Shown here piece by piece: positions 9,495-13,435 of a stretch of 64,000 bases of DNA (its first letter is position 1; every line of letters starts with the position of its first letter). The DNA comes from Paraburkholderia megapolitana. GTDB lineage: Bacteria; Pseudomonadota; Gammaproteobacteria; Burkholderiales; Burkholderiaceae. Where the stretch lies: NCBI RefSeq assembly GCF_007556815.1, contig NZ_CP041743.1, forward strand, positions 2,949,001-3,013,000, read 5' to 3'. A program made the translations under genes and the position numbers. The notes below the pieces were generated by a model. The model worked only from the letters and a program-made list of their open reading frames with translations. It searched no databases and was not told where the DNA came from.

Positions 9495-9665
9495 ATGCAG
9501 ATGCCGGTATTTCGGCTTTTGGCACTGATCGGCCTGTTGGGCGCGACGACGCTCATCGGTGCGTGCGGTGCGGACATCGACCCACCCAAGGCAGCATGTG
9601 GCAACACCACGCTCGCCAATACCAAGATGAGCTGTCCGCCGGGCTTTGTCCCGCCCGCATCCTGA
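9495..9665 (+). CDS. Small lipoprotein (56 aa) upstream of phospholipase C
   Basis: A short open frame encoding MQMPVFRLLALIGLLGATTL followed by a lipobox IGAC (Cys24), giving a mature lipoprotein of about 33 residues with two more cysteines (Cys35, Cys47) that could pair. GGAG lies 7-8 nt before the ATG. The stop is 28 nt before the phospholipase C start in the same direction, so the two are likely co-transcribed. No family was recognised. The signal peptide, Shine-Dalgarno and operon position together argue that it is real; a role in anchoring or assisting the secreted enzyme is only a guess. Confidence 0.65.
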   Translation: MQMPVFRLLALIGLLGATTLIGACGADIDPPKAACGNTTLANTKMSCPPGFVPPAS

Positions 9666-9693
9666 CGATCGAATCCAGCCTGGAACCCCGCGC

Positions 9694-11817
9694 ATGAACT
9701 TCCGCATGAACCCCAAATCCCGTCGCGATTTTTTGAAGCTGTCAGCCGGCGTAGCCGGCGCGACCGTCGCCTCCGCACTGTTTCCCGAGTCGATCCGCAA
9801 GGCGCTCGCCATCGAGCCGAATTCGGTCACCGGCACCATCCAGGACGTCGAGCACATCGTCGTCTTCATGCAGGAGAACCGCTCGTTCGACCACTATCTC
9901 GGTCACCTGAGCGGCGTGCGCGGCTATAACGACCGCTTCCCCGTCACGCTGCCGAACGGCCAGCCCGTATGGTTCCAGCCGCGCCAGGAAGACCAGACCA
10001 AAGTCATCGCGCCGTTTCGCTACGACACGACGAATCCGGGCGTCAACGCGCAATGTATCGGCGGTCTGCCGCATACGTGGAGCACGACGCACGGCGCGAT
10101 AGACGGCGGTCGCGGCGACAAATGGGCCGTGCAGAAAACGAACATGACGATGGGCTACCACGTGCGCGCGGACATTCCGTTCCACTACGCGCTCGCCGAC
10201 GCGTTCACGGTTTGCGATCACTATTTCTGTTCGATCCCGGGCAATACTCACCCGAACCGCATGTACCTGATGACCGGTATGGTCGATCCGAAGGCAACCG
10301 GCGGCGGCCCGCTGCTCGACAACACCGACTACATCGACAACCAGTTCGACAGCATCAAGCTGGCGCCCTTCAACTGGACCACCTATCCCGAGCGGCTGGA
10401 AACGGCCGGCATCTCGTGGCAGATCTATCAGCAAGGCACGGGCTTCGATAATTTCACAGGCAACTACGGCACGAACATGCTGGCCTGTTTCCAGAATTTC
10501 GTAAACGCGCCGGCCGGTTCGTCGCTGCAAAACCGCGGCATGAGCACACGCACGCTCACGCAACTGAAGGCCGACGTCGAAGCCAATGCCCTGCCGCAGG
10601 TGTCGTGGCTGCTGCCGCCGGCGGCCTATTCGGAACATCCGAAGTTCACGCCGCTTTACGGCGCCAACTACATCTCGACGATTCTCGATGCGCTGACGTC
10701 GAACCCGGATGTATGGAGCAAGACCGTTCTGTTCATCATGTACGACGAGAACGACGGCCTGTTCGATCATATGGTGCCGCCGCAGGCGCCGACGCTGCCG
10801 GGCTCGGGCTTGAGCACCGTCGACATTTCGCTCGAACGCCACGACGTCGTCACCGCAACACAAACTACCTATACCGCCGATAACCTGCCCTACGGCCTCG
10901 GCCCTCGCGTACCGATGACGGTGGTGTCGCCGTGGTCGAAGGGTGGCTTCGTCTGCTCGCAGGTGTTCGATCACACGTCGGTGCTGCAATTCATCGAGAA
11001 GCGTTTCGGCGTGACGGAAACCAACATCTCGCCGTGGCGCCGCGCGATCTGCGGCGATCTGACCTCGGCGCTCGATTTCTCGAAGTCGGACCCCGCGGTA
11101 CCGACGCTGCCGAGTACCCAGTCGTATATCGCCCAGTCCGACCAGCAGTGCGCACGTCCGACTGCGCAGACCGCGCCCGCCAGCAACGCACAGCAGGTGG
11201 TTACGGCGCAGGAGCCCGGCACGCGACCTGCACGCGCGCTGCCCTACGAGCTGCATGTGAATGGCCAGTTGCAGGCGCAGGGATACACATTGACGTTTGC
11301 CAACACCGGTAAGCAAGGTGCGCATTTCTGGGTGTACACCGGCGACCCGACTGCAATGCCGCGTCGCTACACGGTGGAAGCGGGCAAGCAGTTGAGCGAT
11401 GTCTGGGCCCTCGATGCGAAGGGCAACTACCTCGTGAACGTCTACGGTCCGAACGGTTATTTCCGGCGCTTCGCGGGTTCCGCCAGTGCGGATGCGGCGG
11501 CAAAACCCGATGTAGTGACCTGCTACGACGTCGCGAATGGCCACGTCTATCTGACGCTCGCCAACGCCGGGGCCACCGCGTTGACCATCACCGCCACCGA
11601 TCTCGCCTACGGCCAGCCGCCGCGCACGCTGAGCGTACCGGCGGGCAAGAGCATCGAGGCGCACTGGGACCTGTCGTGCAGCAACCAGTGGTACGACCTG
11701 CAACTGACGGTCGCAGGAAACGCGAACTGGTTGCGCCGTATCGCGGGTCACGTCGAGACAGGCAAGGTCAGCATCACCGATCCGGCTGCGACTGCGCCGG
11801 TGACGACGGCGATTTAA
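9694..11817 (+). CDS. Phosphocholine-specific phospholipase C (PlcN/PlcH family), Tat substrate
   Basis: A 707-aa secreted enzyme. The Tat signal SRRDFLKLSAGVAGATVASA spans residues 9-28. The phosphoesterase core begins DVEHIVVFMQENRSFDHYLG, carrying metal-binding Glu-Asn and the Asp/His pair, with later FIMYDENDGLFDHMVPPQAP and FDHTSVLQFIEKRFG as in family members. Two C-terminal DUF756 beta domains follow (about residues 515-690). The enzyme hydrolyses phosphatidylcholine or sphingomyelin outside the cell, releasing phosphocholine. An in-frame ATG at 9646 exists, but 9694 places the twin-arginine motif correctly. The haemolytic (PlcH) and non-haemolytic (PlcN) subtypes cannot be separated by eye. 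Confidence 0.93.
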   Translation: MNFRMNPKSRRDFLKLSAGVAGATVASALFPESIRKALAIEPNSVTGTIQDVEHIVVFMQENRSFDHYLGHLSGVRGYNDRFPVTLPNGQPVWFQPRQEDQTKVIAPFRYDTTNPGVNAQCIGGLPHTWSTTHGAIDGGRGDKWAVQKTNMTMGYHVRADIPFHYALADAFTVCDHYFCSIPGNTHPNRMYLMTGMVDPKATGGGPLLDNTDYIDNQFDSIKLAPFNWTTYPERLETAGISWQIYQQGTGFDNFTGNYGTNMLACFQNFVNAPAGSSLQNRGMSTRTLTQLKADVEANALPQVSWLLPPAAYSEHPKFTPLYGANYISTILDALTSNPDVWSKTVLFIMYDENDGLFDHMVPPQAPTLPGSGLSTVDISLERHDVVTATQTTYTADNLPYGLGPRVPMTVVSPWSKGGFVCSQVFDHTSVLQFIEKRFGVTETNISPWRRAICGDLTSALDFSKSDPAVPTLPSTQSYIAQSDQQCARPTAQTAPASNAQQVVTAQEPGTRPARALPYELHVNGQLQAQGYTLTFANTGKQGAHFWVYTGDPTAMPRRYTVEAGKQLSDVWALDAKGNYLVNVYGPNGYFRRFAGSASADAAAKPDVVTCYDVANGHVYLTLANAGATALTITATDLAYGQPPRTLSVPAGKSIEAHWDLSCSNQWYDLQLTVAGNANWLRRIAGHVETGKVSITDPAATAPVTTAI

Positions 11818-11855
11818 GTCCGATGCTTTGGGCCCGCTTCGTGGGCCCGCCTTCG

Positions 11856-11884
11856 TTGACCTGGCGAAAAGCGCGCGTTAGCAT
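11856..11884 (+). promoter_or_regulatory. Candidate sigma70 promoter for the cysS leader
   Basis: TTGACC at 11856-11861 and TAGCAT at 11879-11884 are separated by exactly 17 nt. A start 7-8 nt after the -10 falls at 11891-11892, the first base of the leader-peptide ATG at 11892. This promoter lies between the phospholipase gene and the leader, so cysS need not depend on upstream transcription. It was assigned by eye; 4 of 6 bases of the -10 match. Confidence 0.45.
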
Positions 11885-11891
11885 GCTTCCC

Positions 11892-11975
11892 ATGCTTACC
11901 CGCGCCCTCTCCCATTCCAGCCCCACCCATGCACTCGCATGCTGTTGCTGCCTGCCTGGGGGAGTTCGCGTCTAG
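11892..11975 (+). CDS. cysS leader peptide with four consecutive Cys codons
   Basis: A 27-codon open frame begins at ATG 11892 (an alternative in-frame ATG at 11883 would give 30) and ends in TAG at 11973-11975. Residues 17-20 are Cys-Cys-Cys-Cys, read from TGC TGT TGC TGC at 11940-11951. No Shine-Dalgarno precedes either ATG; if the promoter at 11856-11884 is right, the transcript would begin at or next to this ATG and be translated leaderless. The Cys run, the cysS gene 98 nt downstream and the intervening terminator make it a classic attenuation sensor of Cys-tRNA charging. No such peptide for this gene is known to me. Confidence 0.7.
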   Translation: MLTRALSHSSPTHALACCCCLPGGVRV

Positions 11976-12044
11976 CGCGTCGCTTCGCATCACATCCGCT
12001 TCCCCAAGGCCACCCGTTGAAAAACCGGTGGCCTTTGTGTTTTT
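11907..12044 (+). promoter_or_regulatory. Transcription attenuator controlling cysS (competing stems)
   Basis: Four segments can be drawn. Segment 1 (11907-11914) pairs with the distal part of segment 2 (11957-11964) over 8 bp including one G-U. Segment 2 (GCCTGGGGGAG, 11954-11964) pairs with segment 3 (11999-12010) over 11 bp with one G-U and one bulged A. Segment 3 overlaps the 5' arm of the terminator (12006-12014), which pairs with segment 4 (12027-12035). The Cys codons lie just before segment 2. A ribosome stalled there leaves segment 2 free for the 2:3 antiterminator; a ribosome reaching the stop codon covers segment 2 and lets the terminator form. The pairing is visible; the mechanism is inferred by analogy with trp/his attenuation. 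Confidence 0.7.
12006..12044 (+). terminator. Rho-independent terminator between leader peptide and cysS
   Basis: A perfect 9-bp stem AAGGCCACC (12006-12014) / GGTGGCCTT (12027-12035) with a 12-nt loop is followed by a U-rich tract to 12044. It stands only 29 nt before the cysS ATG. It therefore lies inside the cysS leader rather than ending an isolated upstream gene, since no room for a promoter remains after it. Confidence 0.85.
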
Positions 12045-12073
12045 AAAGCCGCCTTGCCATACGGAGCATCTCG

Positions 12074-13435
12074 ATGCCTCTTGCCCTATACGACACCTGG
12101 TCGCGCACCGTGCGCCCTTTTACGCCGCTACAGCCCGATCATGTCGGCCTGTACTGCTGCGGACCCACGGTCTACGACCACGCGCATATCGGCAATGTGT
12201 TCGAGGACGTGCTGCGTCGCGTCTTGGCGCTGAACGGCTACAACGTGCGGCACGTAGTCAATATCACCGACGTCGGACATCTCACTTCGGATGCGGACGA
12301 AGGCGAAGACAAGATGGAAAAAGGCAGTCGCCGCACCGGACAATCGGCTTGGGATATCGCGGAGCGCTATACCGCAGCCTTTATCGACGACTGGCACGCG
12401 CTCAACCTGCTGGAGCCGACCCTGTGGTGCCGCGCGACCGACCACATCGCCGAACAGATCGCCTTCATCGCCACACTCGAAGCGAACGGCTACACGTATC
12501 GCACCACCGACGGCGTCTACTTCGACACCAGCAAGCAGGACGACTACGGCTTTCTGGCGCGCCTCGACCGTGACGGTCTGCAAGCGGGCAAGCGCGTCGC
12601 ACTCGGCGAGAAGCGCAGCATCACCGACTTCGCGCTATGGAAATTCAGTCCCGCCAATTCCACCCGGCAAATGGAATGGGACAGCCCGTGGGGGCGCGGC
12701 TTTCCTAGCTGGCATATCGAATGCTCGGCGATGTCGGCGAAGTATCTCGGCCCGTGGTTCGATATTCATTGCGGCGGCGAAGATCACATCGCCGTGCATC
12801 ACAGCAACGAGATCGCGCAGACCCAGGCGTGCCACGGCACGCGGCTCGCGAACTTCTGGATGCACGGTCACTTCCTGATGCTGGATGCCGCGAAGATGTC
12901 GAAGTCGAGCGGCGACTTCCTGCGCATCGAGACGCTGGTCGAGCGCGGTTTCGATCCGCTGGCCTACCGTTATCTGTGCCTGACAGCGCACTATCGGAGC
13001 ACGCTGCGGTTCACGCAGGAGGCGCTCGAGGGCGCACAGGCCGCGCTTGATCGACTGCGCAAAGCCTATGCGAGCTGGCCCTCGGGTGGCACCGCGGACG
13101 AAGACTTCGTCGCTCGCTTCGACGCCGAGGTCAACCAGGATCTGAATCTGCCGCGCGCGCTGGCGGTGCTGTGGGAAATGGTCAGGAGCGAACTACCCGT
13201 CGAAACGCGTCGGGCAACAGTCGATCGTTTCGATACGGTACTCGGCTTGAACCTCGCCGCATGGCGGGCAGGCAGCTTCGATATTCCCGCAGACGTCGCG
13301 GAGCTTGTCATCCAGCGCGAGAACGCCCGCGCCGAACGGAACTGGGCAGAGGCCGACCGCTTGCGCGACGCATTGCAGGCGATGGGCTGGCAGATCCAGG
13401 ACAGTGCGGATGGGCAACAACTCAGTCCGTGCTGA
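12074..13435 (+). CDS. cysS: Cysteinyl-tRNA synthetase
   Basis: A 453-aa class I synthetase that charges tRNA-Cys. The N-terminus has LYCCGPTVYDHAHIGN, with zinc ligand Cys29 and the signature at 38-41 reading HIGN instead of the usual HIGH. Other zinc ligands are in WHIECSAMS and HHSNEIAQ, and KMSKS is present at 274-278. The segment DVGHLTSDADEGEDKMEKG marks the subfamily variant seen beside the standard enzyme in some genomes, so this may be a second cysS (inference). GGAG lies 7 nt before the ATG. A Cys-codon leader peptide and terminator directly upstream indicate attenuation control. It is about 8 residues shorter than the E. coli enzyme. Confidence 0.93.
   Translation: MPLALYDTWSRTVRPFTPLQPDHVGLYCCGPTVYDHAHIGNVFEDVLRRVLALNGYNVRHVVNITDVGHLTSDADEGEDKMEKGSRRTGQSAWDIAERYTAAFIDDWHALNLLEPTLWCRATDHIAEQIAFIATLEANGYTYRTTDGVYFDTSKQDDYGFLARLDRDGLQAGKRVALGEKRSITDFALWKFSPANSTRQMEWDSPWGRGFPSWHIECSAMSAKYLGPWFDIHCGGEDHIAVHHSNEIAQTQACHGTRLANFWMHGHFLMLDAAKMSKSSGDFLRIETLVERGFDPLAYRYLCLTAHYRSTLRFTQEALEGAQAALDRLRKAYASWPSGGTADEDFVARFDAEVNQDLNLPRALAVLWEMVRSELPVETRRATVDRFDTVLGLNLAAWRAGSFDIPADVAELVIQRENARAERNWAEADRLRDALQAMGWQIQDSADGQQLSPC

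Follow-up and report, generated by a model that had tools for sequence, protein, structure and literature searches.

Why should a bacterium keep a second gene for cysteinyl-tRNA synthetase (CysRS), and what would call that gene into use? The question is raised by a locus of Paraburkholderia megapolitana, lying within a stretch of 64,000 nucleotides (nt) that we analysed as a whole and refer to as the window (assembly GCF_007556815.1, contig NZ_CP041743.1, positions 2,949,001 to 3,013,000). Here a CysRS gene, which we call cysS2, is preceded by a short leader open reading frame (ORF) with a run of cysteine codons, and by an intrinsic terminator. As argued below, this leader is very probably a ribosome-mediated, trp-type transcription attenuator that responds to tRNA-Cys charging and regulates cysS2 as an accessory gene. 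The genome (7.6 Mb, 3 contigs) holds two cysS genes, the other copy being found on contig C3 and sharing 40% identity with cysS2, and the window CysS2 scores 403.9 bits against the NCBIfam cysS cut-off of 340. The initial annotation of this DNA could not know that the downstream gene is a second copy. The parts of the locus are:

11856-11884, plus strand: sigma70-type promoter TTGACC-N17-TAGCAT, with TTGACC at 11856-11861, a 17-nt spacer and TAGCAT at 11879-11884
11892-11975, plus strand: leader ORF of 27 codons, ATG at 11892 and TAG at 11973-11975, peptide MLTRALSHSSPTHALACCCCLPGGVRV
11907-11914, plus strand: segment 1, CTCTCCCA, which pairs with part of segment 2 (11957-11964)
11940-11951, plus strand: Cys codons TGC TGT TGC TGC (codons 17-20), by which Cys-tRNA charging is proposed to be sensed
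11954-11964, plus strand: segment 2, common to the 1:2 and 2:3 pairings
11999-12010, plus strand: segment 3, which forms the 2:3 antiterminator and overlaps the start of the terminator 5' arm
12006-12044, plus strand: intrinsic terminator, a 9-base-pair stem (12006-12014 with 12027-12035) and a U-tract to 12044
12074-13435, plus strand: cysS2, second cysteinyl-tRNA synthetase gene, 453 amino acids, without the four residues that follow HIGN

The promoter, the Cys-rich leader ORF, the three pairings, the U-tract and cysS itself had all been proposed initially, and each could be retraced base by base at these coordinates. Segment 1 (CTCTCCCA) forms eight pairs, one of them G-U, with TGGGGGAG at 11957-11964. 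The alternative 2:3 pairing joins 11954-11964 to 11999-12010 through 11 pairs (one G-U, with A12006 bulged), thereby occupying 12007-12010 of the terminator 5' arm. The 3:4 terminator pairs AAGGCCACC (12006-12014) with GGTGGCCTT (12027-12035) and is followed by TTTGTGTTTTT. The cysS2 ATG at 12074 is served by a GGAG ribosome site at 12063-12066, located 3' of the terminator and outside the modelled pairings. The leader RNA folds with a z-score of -4.39, none of 200 shuffles being equally stable, and the promoter is the single promoter-like site within 11700-12200 (shuffles: mean 0.0, standard deviation 0.2). When the window was scanned with the Rfam covariance models (T-box and other curated RNA families), no match was obtained at gathering thresholds.

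Orthologs of cysS2 provided 129 leaders, of which 116 were distinct after 13 duplicates had been removed; none was too short, near-copies remain among the 116, and one fragment (L130) was dropped from the rows. Controls were 445 ORFs of at least 150 codons, taken mechanically from the same 80 loci. A leader was scored as positive if it had a Cys-Cys leader ORF beginning with ATG and, 3' of this ORF, an intrinsic terminator; by this rule 71 of the 116 leaders were positive, compared to 2 of the 445 control ORFs. All positives are betaproteobacterial (71/88, versus 0/28 leaders of other lineages). The Cys-Cys leader ORF alone was found in 76 leaders (76/116 overall, 76/88 among Betaproteobacteria) versus 21/445 controls, and the ORF in combination with a promoter at the spacing of a leaderless transcript, no terminator being required, in 63/116 versus 0/445. 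Judged by these counts, the leader with a Cys ORF and a terminator is conserved beyond chance, and the alignment check for conserved Cys-codon runs that the initial annotation suggested was borne out in Betaproteobacteria, where the terminator is conserved as well (both features in 71/88).

The leaders that combine a Cys-pair ORF, a suitably placed -10 box and a terminator are also alike in their geometry. We kept 69 of the 116 (46 lacked a Cys-pair ORF preceded by a -10 box in a suitable place, and L065 lacked a terminator), and the removal of near-copies left 64, which are thus selected for these three features. Among them the leader frame and the Cys codons are conserved: the first Cys is codon 15 in 51 of the 64 and, likewise in 51, stands 33 nt before the stop. 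The Cys run comprises two codons in 45 leaders, three in 16 and four in 3, and its first codon is TGC in 34 and TGT in 30.

Is the element tied to cysS2, or does it serve other genes as well? To address this we used a covariance model, R1, built from alignment A1, i.e., 51 of the 64 selected leaders (L033, L056, L057, L059, L061, L062, L064, L089, L092, L093, L100, L105 and L111 were left out). In its own genome, R1 retrieved the window element with an E-value (E) of 9.8e-28 and its next match at E 1.16, i.e., no second strong match that would point to a wider regulon. Across the genus, strong matches (E 2.5e-20 or better) occurred in 54 of 144 genomes, exactly the 54 that carry cysS2, and in 54/54 the match lies 24-82 nt upstream of cysS2 on the same strand. 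The attenuator element is strictly linked to cysS2 in the genus. Elsewhere in these genomes there were 22 weak matches (E 1.4e-5 to 0.0097), one of which (genome G048, neighbourhood L027) is a terminator-like match before another gene. When 65 loci were scanned (62 of the 80 named ones plus 3 from plasmids), R1 gave 21 matches with an E of 0.1 or better. Each of these lies immediately upstream of cysS2, and the non-betaproteobacterial loci in the scan yielded no match; R1 also missed some betaproteobacterial loci having a Cys-run ORF (e.g., L089, L092, L100, L105). Order-wide, the model gave five matches, three at cysS2 (the window genome, G645 and G544) and two elsewhere (G497 and G137), the latter being set aside after inspection of the sequence. 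Besides the window's, 11 cysS2 loci were found in this order-wide draw; all 11 have an in-frame Cys run upstream, and 9 have a -10-like box 5-9 nt before the ATG under a loose rule in which no -35 box was required. Of these 11 loci, L180 and L183, if not more, repeat known leaders (L064 and L089).

One feature on which the initial annotation was silent is the spacing between the promoter and the leader ATG, which in the window is 7 nt after the -10 box. A sigma70 promoter is expected to place the transcription start about 7 nt downstream of its -10 box; hence the transcript would begin at or next to the leader AUG, and translation of the leader peptide would proceed with no Shine-Dalgarno (SD) site. 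We located promoters in the ortholog leaders without reference to any ATG, using a TTGACN-N16-18-TANNNT-type pattern, and found them in 68 of the 116 distinct leaders. In 62 of these 68 the Cys ORF starts at the first ATG downstream of the -10 box, at a distance of 7 nt (56 leaders), 6 nt (5) or 5 nt (1), related leaders in these counts not being independent of each other. Of the six remaining leaders, three have their first ATG 2 nt downstream of the box, a distance too short for it to be part of the transcript; their Cys ORF begins at a second ATG, 7 nt from the box. SD-like words occur 5' of the leader ATG in 13/69 leaders, every one overlapping a TAGGAT -10 box, and 5' of cysS2 itself in 50/69. 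In the window, a further in-frame ATG at 11883 overlaps the -10 box and is therefore not expected to be transcribed from the leader promoter. This spacing predicts that the leader ORF is leaderless.

How would such a leader work? Transcription would start at or next to the leader AUG, and the leader peptide would be translated without an SD site. When charged Cys-tRNA is at hand, the ribosome would reach the stop codon and cover segment 2, the 3:4 terminator would form, and transcription would end near 12044. When Cys-tRNA is scarce, the ribosome would stall at codons 17-20 and leave segment 2 free; the 2:3 pairing would then form before segment 4 is made, and RNA polymerase would read into cysS2. 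An untranslated leader would form the 1:2 pairing, followed by termination. The direction of the response is inferred from this geometry. When a ribosome was placed at the first Cys codon of the 64 selected leaders, the freed sequence folded in 59 of them so that 3 nt or more of the terminator arm were taken up. The spare synthetase would thus be deployed only when the housekeeping enzyme or the cysteine supply fails. Of six housekeeping cysS leaders scanned (330 nt each, in a scan not aimed at terminators), none had a Cys-pair leader ORF, an arrangement that suggests a spare enzyme called up when charging falls.

The initial annotation had also called for covarying stems, and this expectation was borne out in part. 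On A1, the terminator stem is paired in 99.8% of cells, with one pair switching between A-U (28 sequences) and G-C (23). The inner 1:2 hairpin, which encloses the Cys codons, is paired in 96.7%, with one pair switching between C-G (28) and U-A (18); for both, the cell-based measures exceed all 500 shuffles, the signal residing mainly in one pair each. The 2:3 helix did not rise above the shuffles. As duplexes, segments paired with their own partners were more stable than with swapped ones, both for 2:3 (-16.4 versus -14.5 kcal/mol) and for 1:2 (-14.0 versus -12.3 kcal/mol).

Several observations weigh against attenuation by Cys-tRNA charging, or against its generality, and are gathered here. 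The number of doubly changed pairs was reached by 115 of 500 shuffles for the terminator and by 435 of 500 for the inner 1:2 hairpin, and the compensatory signal of each rests mainly on one pair, which may reflect one ancestral event. The 2:3 helix, which is paired in 95.7% of cells on A1, was equalled on pairing by 241 of 500 shuffles; we looked for covariation in it on A1 and found none above shuffles or slid controls, the helix slid by +1 even having a higher covariation score (0.147 versus 0.102 unslid). The own-versus-swapped advantage of the 2:3 and 1:2 duplexes is modest, given a shuffle standard deviation of about 4 kcal/mol. In addition, 17 of the 88 betaproteobacterial leaders fail the rule of a Cys-Cys ORF and a terminator, among them leaders without a Cys-pair ORF (L083, L094, L096-L098, L052, L053 and L068). 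The P. phenoliruptrix leader L049 (4179-4327) matches the covariance model with 135 bits, yet starts with AAG; L115, a cysS2 copy in genome G178, has no leader; L108 has a 1-nt insertion; and in L047, L110, L122 and L126 the stop is changed. In the Janthinobacterium leaders L069, L080 and L103 the frame that starts at the leaderless-spaced ATG contains one or two Cys codons but lacks a Cys pair, and Undibacterium-type loci have Cys runs with no clear terminator. Order-wide, R1 reached E 0.001 at only 3 of 12 cysS2 genes, the window included. Finally, were cysteine itself missing, an extra synthetase would be of no help. The trp-type control originally proposed thus keeps the Cys runs, the terminator, the 54/54 linkage and most of the comparative tests on its side, and lacks covariation of the 2:3 helix.

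Some of these exceptional loci have features of their own. The three Janthinobacterium leaders are matched by R1, and in L069 and L080 a Cys pair stands in another frame. The Undibacterium-type loci L055, L058, L085, L177 and L178 have long Cys runs at or near the leader ORF stop and no clear terminator, and possibly use the same sensor in a different way; in L055 and L058, the cysS2 type is the only CysRS match. L049, with its AAG start, and L115, with no leader, are natural exceptions that could be used as controls.

A further consideration concerns the enzyme rather than its leader. A four-residue gap directly after HIGN is found in 3 of 127 aligned CysS2 rows (near-copies included), namely the window and its own two loci, while the other 124 have a four-residue xR(T/S)(Y/F) motif at this place, as does the P. 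acidicola CysS2, the closest relative found (93% identical). It is a serious possibility, somewhat short of an even chance, that the attenuator is real and governs an inactive or impaired enzyme in this strain, which would be compatible with attenuation by Cys-tRNA charging. The confinement of the gap to the window genome's rows speaks for an impaired enzyme, as does the occurrence of broken or truncated cysS2 copies (L130, L131) in other family genomes, which suggests that cysS2 is dispensable there. On the other hand, the reading frame, KMSKS and the four positions that we take to be zinc ligands are intact in the window CysS2, and this strain has retained a conserved leader. These presumed zinc ligands are kept in 127/127 rows, for which reason a zinc-independent spare enzyme is not favoured.

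Alternatively, the leader ORF might act mainly on translation or mRNA decay, in the manner reported for mycobacterial polycysteine leaderless ORFs, with the hairpin not being the main switch. The predicted leaderless polycysteine ORF does resemble the mycobacterial system cited in the available portions of PMC9031893 and PMC13236596, and the Undibacterium-type loci retain the Cys run without a clear terminator. We nevertheless consider this explanation improbable: in the window, as in 71/88 betaproteobacterial leaders, a terminator with a U-tract separates the leader ORF from the gene, and the cysS2 ribosome site lies beyond this terminator, free of the modelled pairings. Least probable of all, and hardly to be credited, is a plain premature terminator or small-RNA 3' end behind a chance Cys-rich ORF, with cysS2 under some other signal such as a repressor; that in the window the frame stays open 5' of the leader ATG (so that the openness of the leader ORF is by itself little proof) and that elsewhere Zur controls a second cysS (PMC10882993 and PMC2770081, as far as their accessible text goes) would suit it, but the Cys-Cys ORF in 76/88 betaproteobacterial leaders versus 21/445 controls (with terminator, 71/88 versus 2/445), the use of both TGC and TGT, the fixed distances to start and stop in most selected leaders, and the 54/54 linkage to cysS2 in the genus stand against it.

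Attenuation by Cys-tRNA charging, the reading that we prefer, is a mechanism of a known kind; the literature searched did not, however, yield its present combination of a betaproteobacterial host, an accessory second cysS, a Cys leader predicted to be leaderless, and a transcription terminator. The trp, his and leu attenuators of enteric bacteria comprise a leader peptide with cognate codons, mutually exclusive 1:2, 2:3 and 3:4 pairings and an intrinsic terminator. The element described here shares the cognate codon run, the terminator and, as predicted from its sequence, the exclusive pairings, and differs in its Cys codons, its tRNA-synthetase target and its predicted leaderless leader ORF. 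The claim in the initial annotation that no attenuator of this kind had been described for a proteobacterial cysS is contradicted by uORFC-8-2, a motif predicted to be a Cys-codon ribosome-mediated attenuator upstream of cysS and, in the sections of PMC8632094 that were available, assigned exclusively to Rhodobacterales (alphaproteobacteria). Compared by description only, uORFC-8-2 resembles our element in having tandem Cys codons in its leader ORF (there as a rule at positions 14-15, here mostly from codon 15), in the predicted attenuation of cysS, in a stem containing the Cys codons and in a terminal U-run. It differs in lineage, the records that bear the present element being Betaproteobacteria and not Rhodobacterales, and in that here the target is, in the window, an accessory second cysS, the Cys runs are often longer, and the promoter abuts the leader AUG. 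No betaproteobacterial cysS attenuator was found in the literature searched, where most subscription papers and supplements lay outside reach.

Three further systems share traits with this one. In the Sinorhizobium meliloti trpL attenuator of trpE, the transcript begins at the leader AUG (PMC10117765, in the part of that paper that was available); the same start is predicted here, with the difference that trpL is a Trp attenuator of trpE whose leaderlessness and translation are reported from data. In mycobacteria, short leaderless polycysteine ORFs (Canestrari et al. 2020) respond to cysteine at the level of translation, according to the accessible portions of PMC9031893 and PMC13236596. They are similar in their contiguous Cys codons and in being leaderless (here predicted), whereas they belong to an unrelated phylum and exert translation-level control, where here there is a transcription terminator and a cysS target. 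Cupriavidus metallidurans CysS2, as far as the accessible text of PMC10882993 and PMC2770081 describes it, is Zur-regulated, responds to zinc starvation and is encoded in an operon with cobW1, folE and queD. It, too, is a second, conditionally expressed CysRS (conditional expression being predicted here) in a betaproteobacterium, while the present gene is attributed to Cys attenuation and has no cobW1, folE or queD neighbours; the two are likened by description, not by subfamily.

How widely is cysS2 spread, and in what company? At an ortholog threshold of E 1e-130 or better, and counting broken and partial copies, it occurs in 25 of 299 genomes of a family-wide draw, and it is present in 12 of 250 genomes of the order-wide draw. 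Among the 24 genomes behind the chosen named loci, 17 have a second CysRS match besides the cysS2 type; in the other seven, three Undibacterium and four uncultured betaproteobacteria with perhaps incomplete assemblies, the cysS2 type is the only one. In a quick tree built from 99 rows, the cysS2 genes with an attenuator are betaproteobacterial, and Paraburkholderia are the window's nearest relatives. The attenuator is missing from a clade of 27 rows (Chloroflexota, Gemmatimonadota, Latescibacterota and Gammaproteobacteria) and also from some betaproteobacterial rows (e.g., L052, L053, L068, L083, L094 and L096-L098). Seven plasmid records filed as Burkholderia or Paraburkholderia hold cysS2 copies at 70% identity or more, and both of the copies examined for the attenuator element (L188 and L189) carry it. 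Within 5 kb, no gene family besides cysS2 is common to more than 6 of 47 named loci, two of which are Chloroflexota (neighbour ORFs were called mechanically, a procedure that recovered cysS2 itself in 40/47). The unit therefore looks self-contained, and, as far as these genomes indicate, the attenuator and cysS2 appear patchily spread together in Betaproteobacteria.

These patterns lead us to a tentative proposal, which we hold with some reserve, the balance being against it: that the promoter, the leaderless polycysteine attenuator and a foreign-type CysRS may move together in Betaproteobacteria, without fixed neighbours, as a portable, self-regulating spare-enzyme cassette that switches on automatically when the resident CysRS or the cysteine supply fails. 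If this were true, the leaderless start would let intact 70S ribosomes read the sensor under stress. More generally, Cys-codon attenuation of cysS would extend to Betaproteobacteria and be tied to an accessory second synthetase, giving a puzzling second cysS copy a testable role as a spare deployed only when Cys-tRNA is short. With more than 50 natural examples of a leader peptide, predicted to be leaderless, that would drive transcription attenuation, the set lends itself to asking whether leaderless initiation is relevant to attenuators and whether such cassettes move as units.

A few minor observations remain. The plasmid collection contains 599 records with a CysRS-like stretch, 488 of them from Klebsiella; 592 are less than 60% identical, and 175 cover at least 80% of the query. 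One Vibrio coralliilyticus plasmid (L187, 1486-4329) carries a cysS that is 55% identical, near genes for a serine O-acetyltransferase and a phosphopantetheinyl transferase, and has no R1 match. In the window, an inverted repeat (GGGCCC...GGGCCC, 11829-11848) without a U-tract lies between the leader promoter and the 3' end of the upstream gene, which encodes a phosphocholine-specific phospholipase C (9646-11817; TIGR03396).

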